Positions 47,464 to 52,057 of a stretch of DNA of 54,083 nucleotides are shown piece after piece. The notes under the pieces are model-generated. The model searched no databases, had not been told where the DNA came from, and saw nothing but the letters and a program-made list of their open reading frames with translations. Positions within the stretch are counted from its first letter, which is position 1, and each line of letters starts with the position of its first letter. The position numbers were made by a program, and so were the translations under genes. The stretch lies in contig DVAE01000010.1 of NCBI GenBank assembly GCA_014189675.1, forward strand, positions 1 through 54,083, written 5' to 3'. This stretch comes from Candidatus Undinarchaeales archaeon SRR5007147.bin71 (GTDB taxonomy: Archaea; Undinarchaeota; Undinarchaeia; Undinarchaeales; Undinarchaeaceae).

Positions 47464-48294
47464 ATGGTAAAAAAGCTCATAAAGAAATTAAAAGGAGCAT
47501 TTTCAAGGCTTTTTGGCAGAAAACGAGTAATACGTCTTGGTATTTATGGAGAGCCGAATACCGGAAAGACAACTCTCGCCAATAAGATTTCTATGGACTG
47601 GATGGGAAAAGAAGTCGGAATCGTCTCAGAAATGCCACACGAAACCAGAACAATCCAAAAAGTTGAGCACATTGAAGTAAAGGCAGGCAAGAAAACCCTG
47701 GTGATGAACCTTCTTGACATGCCCGGACTTTCCGCGTCGGTTGATTTTAAGGAATTTACAAAATTCAAGCAAAGTGTCAGAAATGTAGACACAGATTTCA
47801 AGGACCTTAAAATTTCGGACCTGAAGAGGATAGCTGAGGAAGAAGACTTGTCTAAAACCGGGAAAAAGGCAGTTATAATACAGAGGCTTAAGGCAAAAAT
47901 AAGCAAGAAGAAGCTTCAGACTTACGTTAAAGACCTAAAAATAAAGATTACTGCAAAGAAGGGGAAGAAGATATCTAAGACGAGTGCAAGGAAAATAGCA
48001 GAGGAAGCAACTAAGGGTATTGTTGAAGCAATTAAATGGCTAGACAATGTTGACTCAGTTATAGTAATGATGGACTCAACAAAAGATCCTATGACACAAG
48101 TAAATATAATGCTTCTTGGAAATCTGGAGGCGAAAAGCATACCAATAGTTATAGCAGCCAACAAAATAGACGCCAAAAATTCCAAGCCAAATAACATAAT
48201 GAGCGCATTCCCTCAGCACCCCGTTGTACCAATATCAGCAAAAGAGGGAAGGAATCTTGAGAATCTTTATAAAACAATAGCGGAGAATGTTTAA
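47464..48294 (+). CDS. arvA: Era-like GTPase (OapA/ArvA family) with SAP-like insertion
   Basis: 276 residues from ATG 47464. G1 GEPNTGKTT (29-37), an IVSEMPHETR segment (53-62), G3 DMPG (85-88), G4 NKID (233-236), G5 SAKEG (258-262) and a QVNIMLLGNL helix. Between G3 and G4, residues about 113-148 read as a SAP-like element (LKISDLKRIAEEE...TGKKAVIIQRLKAKI) plus a basic segment, absent in ordinary members of about 200 residues. A relative in haloarchaea (ArvA/OapA) drives vesicle formation and is next to ArvB and ArvC, as here. The start could be GTG 47446; TATA is at 47423-47434. Confidence 0.82.
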   Translation: MVKKLIKKLKGAFSRLFGRKRVIRLGIYGEPNTGKTTLANKISMDWMGKEVGIVSEMPHETRTIQKVEHIEVKAGKKTLVMNLLDMPGLSASVDFKEFTKFKQSVRNVDTDFKDLKISDLKRIAEEEDLSKTGKKAVIIQRLKAKISKKKLQTYVKDLKIKITAKKGKKISKTSARKIAEEATKGIVEAIKWLDNVDSVIVMMDSTKDPMTQVNIMLLGNLEAKSIPIVIAANKIDAKNSKPNNIMSAFPQHPVVPISAKEGRNLENLYKTIAENV

Positions 48295-48295
48295 T

Positions 48296-48730
48296 ATGGC
48301 AAAAGCACGGAAAAAACCTATTAAGAAAAAGAAAATGGTGAGAAAACCAGGGAGAAGGTCGAAGAAGAGCTTGAAGATAGACTTCATTTCAATGTCAAAA
48401 TTAAAGGGTGACACAATAGAAGAGAAGATAGAAACAATACTGGACAAAGTAAAAATTGGGCATGTAGTAATTTTAGATGAAGCATTAAGTCCTGACGAAG
48501 AGGCTCACCTAGTTACAGAAACAATGGAAGGAATAAATGAAGAGTTTAGTGGAATAGAGTTCTGTAGCCTGCCACGACAAAGTGGAAAAGCCAGAATGTT
48601 GTTAGCGAGGGCGGCAAAACTTCTAGGAATAGAGATGACCAGCCCAGGTGTTACATTAGTAGGACCGTCCACAATAATAAGTGACATAAAACGCGATCTT
48701 GGCGCATTCCATGTGTCAGCTGAGTTGTAA
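48296..48730 (+). CDS. arvB: DUF2073 protein (OapB/ArvB family)
   Basis: 144 residues. A basic N-terminus (KARKKPIKKKKMVRKPGRRS, about 30 residues) precedes an alpha/beta domain (MSKLKGDTIEEKIETILDKV, HVVILDEALSPDEEAHLVTETM). The DUF2073 pattern and its place between the GTPase and the zinc-ribbon gene identify it. It starts one base after the GTPase stop. Role is taken from the haloarchaeal operon: partner of the GTPase. Confidence 0.82.
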   Translation: MAKARKKPIKKKKMVRKPGRRSKKSLKIDFISMSKLKGDTIEEKIETILDKVKIGHVVILDEALSPDEEAHLVTETMEGINEEFSGIEFCSLPRQSGKARMLLARAAKLLGIEMTSPGVTLVGPSTIISDIKRDLGAFHVSAEL

Positions 48731-48732
48731 AG

Positions 48733-49131
48733 ATGCATAAATGCCTAAAATGTGGAGAAAGGTTTGAGGAAGATGATGTTCCTATTGTCAGCGGATGTTC
48801 CTGCGGCGGGAGAATGTTTTTGTTAGTGAGGAGTGAGGAGGATGAAGAAAGGGCAGATGAAATTTATGAAGAACTTTCTGAGAAAATAGAAGAGATTAAG
48901 GAACTTCCAGAGACTCAGGAGAAAAAATCTGAAAAATCTCCTGATAAGGAGACGGAGAAACCGAAATTTGGGATAGAAACTATAAAGATAAAGAGGCCTG
49001 GAGTTTACGAAATAAATATCGAAGCCCTAATGAAAGGGAAACCGATTGTTGTTAGACAGCAAGAGGGATCTTTCATTATAAGTCTTCCTTCTATATTTGG
49101 AAGAGAGACAGAAATAATTCTTTCAAAATAA
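48733..49131 (+). CDS. arvC: Zinc-ribbon protein (OapC/ArvC family)
   Basis: 132 residues with a zinc ribbon at the N-terminus (CLKCGERF...GCSCGGRMF), an acidic linker (EDEERADEIYEELSEKIEEI) and a C-terminal domain (GVYEINIEALMKGKPIVVRQ, SLPSIFGRE). Third gene of the operon, 2 bp after the second. The combination of zinc ribbon and this order is diagnostic of the family. Function unproven here. Confidence 0.82.
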   Translation: MHKCLKCGERFEEDDVPIVSGCSCGGRMFLLVRSEEDEERADEIYEELSEKIEEIKELPETQEKKSEKSPDKETEKPKFGIETIKIKRPGVYEINIEALMKGKPIVVRQQEGSFIISLPSIFGRETEIILSK

Positions 49132-50326: not shown

Positions 50327-50746
50327 TTATACTAATTCTGATTCGCTGAAGAATATTGGAATTTCTCGTTCGGCAGATTCTATTGAATCAGAAGCGTGCA
50401 CCAAATTTCTGGGAAGCTCCTCTTCCCCAAGATCTCCACGAATTGTTCCAGGTTCAGCGTTCTCAGGATTGGTTGCGCCAATTAAGTCACGAACTTTCTG
50501 GACGGCATTTTCAGATTCAAGAATCATAGGAAGAGCAGACCCTTCCATAGCAAAATCAACAAGTCCCTGATAAAAGTCTTTTTCCGAATGCTCCTGGTAT
50601 AGTGCCTCTGCCTGCTCCTGTGAAACATTAGAAATTTTTGCAGCCCTTATTGTGAAACCTGCAGATTCTATCCTCTTTATTATTTCTCCAACAAGACCTC
50701 TTTTTACTGAGTCAGGTTTTATCATGCAAAAAGTTCTCTCAGTCAT
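50327..50746 (-). CDS. ndk: Nucleoside diphosphate kinase
   Basis: 139 residues; phosphorylates NDPs to NTPs via a histidine intermediate. ERTFCMIKPDSVKRGLVGEII at the start and the active-site segment NLVHASDSIESAEREI near residue 118. Final gene of the L7Ae-S28e-L24e-ndk cluster, overlapping L24e by 8 bp, the conserved archaeal order. The tail ends FFSESELV. Confidence 0.96.
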   Translation of the reverse strand: MTERTFCMIKPDSVKRGLVGEIIKRIESAGFTIRAAKISNVSQEQAEALYQEHSEKDFYQGLVDFAMEGSALPMILESENAVQKVRDLIGATNPENAEPGTIRGDLGEEELPRNLVHASDSIESAEREIPIFFSESELV

Positions 50747-51077
50747 TTTTCCGTTCCTCTTTCTGTTCTTGTTTTTTATCTTCTTTCTTTTCCTCGCTTT
50801 TCTCTTTTACTACTTCAGCTTCAGATCTTGGAGGTTTTCCCTTTTCTTTTTTAGGTTGGGCTTCTGACTTTGCACGAACCTCAGCTGCTATGTCGATTCT
50901 TCCTTTTGCCTTCTGATATTTACGAGTCCAGCCAAACTTGACCGGATTTCTTCCTAACTTAAGGAGATTCTTATCGCATTTGTTCGAGCAAAAGTAAAGA
51001 AGGGATCCGTCTTTCTTAACAAGAATCTTCCCAGTACCCCTCTCAATCTCTGTACCGCAAAAAGAGCATCTTTCCAT
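50739..51077 (-). CDS. rpl24e: Ribosomal protein L24e with basic/acidic tail
   Basis: 112 residues. The first 60 are L24e: zinc-finger cysteines CSFCGTEIERG and FCSNKCDKNLL, then RNPVKFGWTRKYQKAKG. The remaining 50 residues are a lysine/glutamate-rich low-complexity tail not seen in normal L24e (about 60-70 residues). Directly abuts S28e and overlaps ndk. Confidence 0.94.
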   Translation of the reverse strand: MERCSFCGTEIERGTGKILVKKDGSLLYFCSNKCDKNLLKLGRNPVKFGWTRKYQKAKGRIDIAAEVRAKSEAQPKKEKGKPPRSEAEVVKEKSEEKKEDKKQEQKEERKND

Positions 51078-51443
51078 TTAAACTGTTCTTATATCCCCCA
51101 CATCCATAAGACCGCGTTTTAGAAGGAGTATATCTCCTTCACGTATAGGTCCCTTAACATTTCTTTTTACAACGCGCCCTTTGTCTCGTCCATCAAGAAC
51201 TTCAGCTCTTACCTGAATAATACCGCCGGTTGCTCCAGTTCTCCTCATTATTTCTATAATCCGTGCAGGAATTGCAGACTCAGCTGCAAGAGGAATAACT
51301 TCTTGTTTTGACCCTTTCTTTGATTTTGTTTTTGACCCTTTCTTAGGTTCTTCTATAGAGTCTGTTCTGGATTCCTTCCGAGGTTCTTCTTTTGGCTTTT
51401 TCTTTAGATCCTGATTTTCAGGCTCAGCATCTTTCTTAGCCAT
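51078..51443 (-). CDS. rps28e: Ribosomal protein S28e with N-terminal extension
   Basis: 121 residues. Residues about 51-121 are S28e (PARIIEIMRRTGATGGIIQV, VLDGRDKGRVVKRNVKGPIREGD, LLKRGLMDVGDIR). The first 50 are a charged, lysine-rich extension with a repeated KKGSKTKSKKGSK pattern, absent from normal S28e (about 70 residues). Overlaps the L7Ae stop by one base. Confidence 0.94.
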   Translation of the reverse strand: MAKKDAEPENQDLKKKPKEEPRKESRTDSIEEPKKGSKTKSKKGSKQEVIPLAAESAIPARIIEIMRRTGATGGIIQVRAEVLDGRDKGRVVKRNVKGPIREGDILLLKRGLMDVGDIRTV

Positions 51444-51982
51444 TATTCAGCTTTTTCCTCTGCGGGCTTTTCTTTAGCTGGAGCTTTTTCAGGAGTCTCT
51501 GTTGATTCCTCAGCAGGTGCTTCTTCTGCTGGCTTTTCTTTAGCTGGAGCTTTTTCAGGAGTCTCTGTTGATTCCTCAGCAGGTGCTTCTTCTGCGGGCT
51601 TTTCTTTAGTTTGTGCTTTCTTTTCTGCGGGCTTCTTGCTTCCTGCCTTGGAGATCTCGCTTACAAGGTCTGTAAGCTGTTTCTTACCTTCGCCAGCGTC
51701 AACAATTGCAACGCATGCGGTAGGTACACTGAGGCCTGCTGCCTTCCCAAGCTCTGCCCTGAGTGGAACTCCTATACAAGGAATTTCACGCTCTTTGCAA
51801 AGCGGTGTTATGTGAGCCACTACTTCAGGGGGAGAAACATCCTCAGCAAAAATGACGAGTTTTGTTTGCTTCCTCTCAATGGCTTTTGTGGACTCATTGG
51901 TCCCTTTCCTAAGCTTTCCAGTTTCTGAAACTATATTCAAAAGACTGTAAGCCTTATTTACAAGTTCTTGGTTTTCTGTCAT
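51443..51982 (-). CDS. rpl7ae: Ribosomal protein L7Ae with repeat-bearing tail
   Basis: 179 residues from ATG 51982. Residues 1-115 are L7Ae, the K-turn binder of ribosome, C/D and H/ACA RNPs and RNase P: YSLLNIVSETGKLRKGTNE, VIFAEDVSPPEVVAHITPLC, GLSVPTACVAIVDAG. The last 65 are a tail of 22-residue Pro-Ala-Glu-Lys repeats. GAGGTGA five bases before the ATG is a clear Shine-Dalgarno; an in-frame GTG at 52012 lacks one. TATA near 52036-52046 gives a leader of about 33 nt. Its presence fits the candidate C/D sRNA in this window. Confidence 0.93.
   Translation of the reverse strand: MTENQELVNKAYSLLNIVSETGKLRKGTNESTKAIERKQTKLVIFAEDVSPPEVVAHITPLCKEREIPCIGVPLRAELGKAAGLSVPTACVAIVDAGEGKKQLTDLVSEISKAGSKKPAEKKAQTKEKPAEEAPAEESTETPEKAPAKEKPAEEAPAEESTETPEKAPAKEKPAEEKAE
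51467..51598. repeat. Two 66-bp tandem repeats coding the L7Ae tail
   Basis: Two copies of a 66-bp unit (51467-51532, 51533-51598) differ at one base and are followed by a short partial third. Each encodes 22 residues of the KEKPAEEAPAEESTE kind. The unit length is a multiple of three, so expansion or loss keeps the frame. Confidence 0.9.
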
Positions 51983-51987
51983 ATCAA

Positions 51988-51994
51988 TCACCTC
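51988..51994 (-). promoter_or_regulatory. Shine-Dalgarno site of L7Ae
   Basis: GAGGTGA on the minus strand, five bases before the ATG at 51982. It decides the start against the GTG at 52012. One of only three clear Shine-Dalgarno sites noticed in the window (others at 16433 and 28534). Confidence 0.6.
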
Positions 51995-52057
51995 TCTTTC
52001 GAGATCAATCACGTAGCGTATTTAGGGTTCAAAGAGGTATATAAATGTTGAGGAGAG

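Follow-up and report, generated by a model that had tools for sequence, protein, structure and literature searches.

The only ArvA-type small GTPase found by a genome-wide homology search in the archaeon SRR5007147.bin71 carries a phylum-specific insert in its switch II region, and the identification of this insert as a SAP-type module within the anatomy of the protein is well supported. A second, insert-free ArvA was not found in this genome. We consider it probable, at roughly 60%, that the insert acts as a nucleic-acid-binding tether on the membrane GTPase switch, most likely for loading or holding nucleic acid at the site of budding.

Host genome and operon

Undinarchaeota are tiny archaea of marine and groundwater habitats, with small genomes. 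SRR5007147.bin71 is a marine member of the Undinarchaeales of 0.62 Mbp (Table 1, PMC7414124). The window, that is the whole stretch of DNA analysed here, corresponds to one entire contig (54,083 bases) of an assembly that consists of 39 contigs and totals 623,718 bases. The reading frame at 47464-48294 is open and in frame and is directly followed by two further genes of the same operon:

47464..48294, + strand: arvA/oapA, a 276-aa ArvA-type small GTPase with an internal SAP-type insert (open ORF, Pfam, ArvA homology)
48287..48730, + strand: arvB/oapB, whose start overlaps the arvA stop by 8 bases (Pfam OapB PF09846, 70.7 bits; synteny)
48733..49131, + strand: arvC/oapC, a zinc-ribbon protein (Pfam OapC PF09845, 86.9 bits)

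The order arvA-arvB-arvC was kept in relatives in a synteny comparison, and a RuBisCO gene and TrkA/TrkH lie 5' of arvA. A link to a replication origin or to chromosome position, as raised in the initial annotation, found no support: the sole Orc1/Cdc6 match in this fragmented assembly is on another contig (C38, the window being C32).

GTPase core and N-terminal helix

The product of arvA matched MMR_HSR1 (Pfam) with 47 bits, and the G1, G3 and G4 motifs expected of the ArvA family are all present, with DMPG and NKID at the positions given earlier. A SAK motif occurs at residues 258-260. The following features of the protein lie outside the insert:

47467..47514, + strand: N-terminal amphipathic basic helix, residues 2-17, candidate membrane anchor
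47548..47574, + strand: G1/P-loop GEPNTGKTT, residues 29-37 (sequence; invariant in the phylum)
47716..47727, + strand: G3 DMPG, residues 85-88 (sequence; invariant in the phylum)
48160..48171, + strand: G4 NKID, residues 233-236 (sequence; conserved)

One half of the protein alone matched ArvA of other archaea with E values down to 6e-39, and in the tree Undinarchaeota ArvA sits among the DPANN ArvA. Together with ArvB and ArvC downstream, the motifs and the core homology confirm the Arv/Oap-type identity proposed from the letters alone. In the structural model the GTPase core was predicted with moderate confidence only (pTM 0.58). Residues 2-16 were modelled as a helix with low pLDDT; the hydrophobic moment of the N-terminal helix (muH 0.70) was reached by 0.8% of shuffled sequences.

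ArvA of Haloferax volcanii (HVO_3014), a vesiculating GTPase, likewise combines a Ras-like core and intact G motifs with an amphipathic N-terminal helix, proposed to dock the protein on the membrane in haloarchaea, and with neighbouring ArvB and ArvC (PMC10927574). Haloferax volcanii that lacks arvA forms no RNA-associated vesicles, and overexpression of the gene yields more of them; loss of arvB abolishes vesicles as well, and deletion of arvC increases them (PMC10927574). Undinarchaeota ArvA differs from HVO_3014 by its SAP-type insert in switch II, and the vesicle role has been tested in Haloferax only.

Some other archaeal genomes showed peculiarities of their own. Two of them (G117 and G190) gave two ArvA-profile matches each, possibly reflecting a second related GTPase. 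In the ArvA of a third (G194; L081, L078; contig C10, about 54557-57000) an intein-like element, several hundred residues long, with Cys as its first residue and HN at its end, splits the P-loop (GPPNSGK / TSIANRI).

The switch II insert

An alignment of 54 ArvA loci delimited the insert, and the profile and model placed the following parts in and next to it:

47767..47967, + strand: phylum-specific insert, residues 102-168, about 67 aa (alignment of 54 ArvA loci)
47794..47892, + strand: SAP domain PF02037, residues 111-143 (profile; helix-extended loop-helix fold; SAP structures at the top of the Foldseek ranking)
47905..47934, + strand: third helix of the insert module, residues 148-157 (model; equivalent stretch after SAP in RpoH fusions)
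47935..47973, + strand: Lys-rich extended segment, residues 158-170, which joins the insert to the conserved long helix (sequence; pLDDT low at 165-169)

The insert lies in the switch II region, 14 residues past DMPG and before the following long helix, where other ArvA have a loop with a single residue, usually Gly, in its place. It is flanked by 'DFKEFTKF' on one side and by this conserved helix, 'ARKIAEEATKGIVEAIKWLDNVD', on the other. About 100 extra residues between G3 and G4 had initially been claimed; the alignment bears out an extra segment, of about 67 residues.

The SAP pattern first recognized by eye was recovered by the profile search. PF02037 scored 31.4 bits against the full-length protein and 34.3 bits against the insert taken by itself, above its curated cut-off of 23.9 bits (HMMER E 1.4e-7), and the inserts of two genomes of the same genus scored 34-36 bits. 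Three genus members thus pass the cut-off; UBA543 and G003 do not. The Pfam profile search gave no SAP match in the UBA543 insert, where the canonical Gly before the second helix is absent, and the G003 insert reached 15.1 bits for SAP, below the cut-off, and a weak 16.8 bits for Rho_N.

Apart from the C-terminal core, no continuous stretch was predicted by AlphaFold2 as well as the block of residues 110-160 (pLDDT about 86-91), which contains helices at 117-126, 135-145 and 148-157. The surrounding linkers (89-108 and 165-169) were poorly modelled, with pLDDT below 50. Modelled alone, the insert adopted the same fold, so that a helix-extended loop-helix, followed by a third helix, was predicted both in the full protein and in isolation, as the SAP reading had anticipated. 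In a Foldseek comparison with the PDB, nearly all of the top 28 chains contain a SAP domain, the best superposition being 1zrj with 1.0 A over 38 columns. None of the matches had an E value under 0.001, in keeping with the small size of the domain, and they included the PIAS1 p53-binding domain. VIA Z scores were 5.0 for 1zrj and 5.9 for the FAN1 SAP region, which is a level that small helical domains may reach by chance. A PDB sequence search with the insert gave weak matches only, among them the SAP domain 1zrj at E 0.92. The assignment is therefore drawn from the agreement of profile, predicted fold and structure ranking; the Z score alone would not settle it.

Several other origins of the likeness were rejected. 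A chance resemblance due to Lys-rich composition is ruled out by the HMMER E value together with the independently predicted fold. SAP domains spread through the genome are ruled out as well, the ArvA insert being its only SAP match at E up to 0.1. An intein or intron reading does not hold for a segment of only 67 aa that lacks splicing motifs, has a SAP fold and is constrained at the protein level.

Distribution and constraint

The insert was present in five of the five phylum genomes with a complete gene, across three families, and probably spans both orders of the phylum. For a sixth phylum gene (G004, L006) the contig breaks off at the very point where the insert would begin. In a profile survey, ArvA was detected in 161 of 394 archaeal genomes. 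Among the matches listed, which comprise all except the few weakest-scoring ones, no insert was seen in about 155 non-phylum ArvA genomes, and full-length non-phylum ArvA ran continuously over about 575-630 bases, with no space for it. The 54-locus alignment and this survey rule out the insert as a common ArvA feature and agree with the expectation that ordinary ArvA lack it. The initial annotation was to be given up if no SAP match or no such fold appeared, or if ordinary ArvA carried the insert too; a SAP match, a helix-extended loop-helix model and insert-free ArvA elsewhere were found. Insert-bearing ArvA are monophyletic (support 100/98). Since they form one clade, the simplest explanation is a single gain, at the root of the sampled phylum or earlier, and on the aligned genes the insert can be taken to have been gained once, before the sampled families split.

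Core sequences of different families are about 66-75% identical and their inserts 33-42%. Among members of the genus, non-synonymous sites of the insert change about 3-6 times faster than those of the core, and dN/dS ranges over 0.07-0.21 in the insert and 0.03-0.05 in the core, one value resting on few differences and the others on nearly saturated dS. All five inserts are basic, with net charges between +9 and +14; Lys accounts for 5 of the 13 residues that are invariant in the insert and, in this genome, for 18 of its 67 residues. The insert is thus a fast-evolving yet constrained basic module under purifying selection.

Related modules and basic tails

The best matches of an insert profile outside the phylum (E down to 6.6e-7) were in the N-terminal part of short archaeal proteins. 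Three of these proved to be RNA polymerase subunit H (the Rpb5 C-terminal domain) with an N-terminal SAP (PF01191 with 90-96 bits in each, SAP above the cut-off in one of the three):

L066:2495-2929, L067:2157-2603 and L068:1397-1819, other archaea: SAP-RpoH fusions (profiles)

Further matches to such SAP-RpoH fusions were in G064 and G195. The insert aligns with the RpoH fusions through the SAP part and the third helix, for example LSKTGKKAVIIQRLKAKISKKKLQTYV versus LPKSGKKIVIIKRLVEHLPEEKLRSHL, and the fusions share the SAP module, including an equivalent of the third helix. There, however, it stands N-terminal to RpoH, whereas in Undinarchaeota it lies inside ArvA; Undinarchaeota RpoH frames have only 81-110 aa. 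Nothing on archaeal SAP-Rpb5 fusions was found in the literature searched. The occurrence of an archaeal SAP-plus-helix module on the transcription machinery favours nucleic-acid binding, without proving it.

The insert shares the helix-extended loop-helix and the GKK before helix 2 with the SAP domains of human E1B-AP5 (1zrj), yeast Tho1 (4uzw, 2wqg) and FAN1. It differs from typical SAP domains by its location inside a GTPase, its extra third helix and its Lys-rich extension, and it drops below Pfam detection in the other families of the phylum. The extended SAP of SDE2 likewise consists of a SAP core and a basic tail, two lysines of which aid ssDNA binding (PMC9399289). SDE2 is, however, a eukaryotic replication-fork protein and no GTPase, and the parallel with the insert is one that we infer.

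A second basic element was observed in the operon:

48287..48379, + strand: basic N-terminal tail of ArvB, about 30 residues (alignment)

This tail is purely basic over about 25-30 aa in five aligned phylum sequences (MAKARKKPIKKKKMVRKPGRRSKKSLKI in this genome). Other aligned archaeal ArvB mostly begin at the conserved core, without a basic tail; the L015 ArvB shows a short KKKKK stretch. The ribosomal proteins L24e, S28e and L7Ae, encoded at 50739-52012, have long, low-complexity, charged K/E-rich extensions too, that of L7Ae containing EKAPAKEKPAEE repeats. Because such charged tails are found on ribosomal proteins next to the operon, basic tails alone are weak evidence, and the high Lys content of the insert may partly be a habit of the lineage. 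In a DPANN-like genome (G387), the ArvA frame (L079) has a Lys/Arg-rich N-terminal extension of about 50 aa, KTARAKSSKAKTARAK..., with a possible GTG start; here ArvA has acquired a basic appendage in another, separate lineage.

Proposed function and alternatives

For Undinarchaeota ArvA we infer nucleic-acid binding, vesiculation and cargo roles. The amphipathic N-terminal helix would dock the GTPase on the membrane, as proposed for its haloarchaeal counterpart. The SAP module and its Lys-rich tail would bind nucleic acid, DNA or RNA, and the basic tail of ArvB would probably join in. The charge and the Lys conservation of the insert are compatible with such binding. As the module appears to hang by flexible linkers on a segment expected to move with the GTP state, binding would be coupled to the membrane-active state, giving a GTP-controlled tether between membrane and nucleic acid. 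Its favoured use would be to hold or load nucleic acid where the membrane buds. DNA and RNA, indistinguishable here, would both be candidate ligands. SAP domains are not confined to dsDNA, those of SDE2 and RAD18 preferring ssDNA (PMC9399289), and the vesicles that depend on ArvA in haloarchaea contain RNA and not DNA (PMC10927574); RNA is for these reasons an equal candidate. Other archaeal vesicles carry DNA (PMC10927574), and it has been suggested that Undinarchaeota grow on extracellular DNA (PMC7414124). The further step to one protein that serves both GTP-driven budding and the loading of DNA or RNA cargo, and thus to a dedicated nucleic-acid-packaging vesicle switch, is tentative and less likely than not.

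The position of the insert can also be read differently. A location in the switch II region, 14 residues past DMPG, on flexible linkers and with every G motif intact, would suit a module that mainly regulates the enzyme, contact with DNA or RNA altering switch II and turning the GTPase on or off without any cargo role; budding might, for instance, be kept away from the nucleoid. Nothing indicates communication between module and nucleotide site, however, and the long flexible linkers favour loose tethering. We regard regulation of the GTPase by nucleic acid, and the nucleoid example with it, as rather unlikely, and nevertheless as the close, main alternative to cargo loading.

The rapid divergence of the insert between families, the loss of the canonical Gly in UBA543 and the fact that SAP domains also contact proteins, the PIAS1 p53-binding domain being among the matches, would suit a helical protein-interaction module for ArvB, ArvC or another partner, SAP-like in fold and without nucleic-acid binding in vivo. 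Against this, the basic charge is retained in all members, as are the invariant Lys residues, and the best matches outside the phylum belong to an RNA polymerase subunit, which makes this reading less likely again. The faster non-synonymous change of the insert within the genus might be expected of a loop insertion without specific function that is tolerated as neutral and became fixed a single time in a lineage of small population size. A dN/dS of 0.07-0.21 points instead to purifying selection, the insert is retained in all complete members of a phylum with small genomes, and its fold is confidently predicted; we consider neutrality very improbable.

Implications

ArvA and SAP domains are each known, and their combination appears to be new in that no direct report of it was found in the literature searched. 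The published ArvA survey chose matches of similar length and dropped 15 sequences longer than 250 aa, and Undinarchaeota are absent from its main text (PMC10927574). At 276 aa with its inserted domain, the Undinarchaeota form lies outside this limit of up to 250 aa, which is a filter of the data set and not a biological definition of ArvA, and would thus be excluded by it. Length filters of this kind would hide such variants.

That the sole ArvA copy carries a module of a type that in most cases grips DNA or RNA suggests a direct link from vesicles to genetic material. A vesicle GTPase fixed throughout a phylum together with a module of nucleic-acid-binding type offers a concrete candidate for the link to the DNA or RNA cargo of archaeal vesicles.
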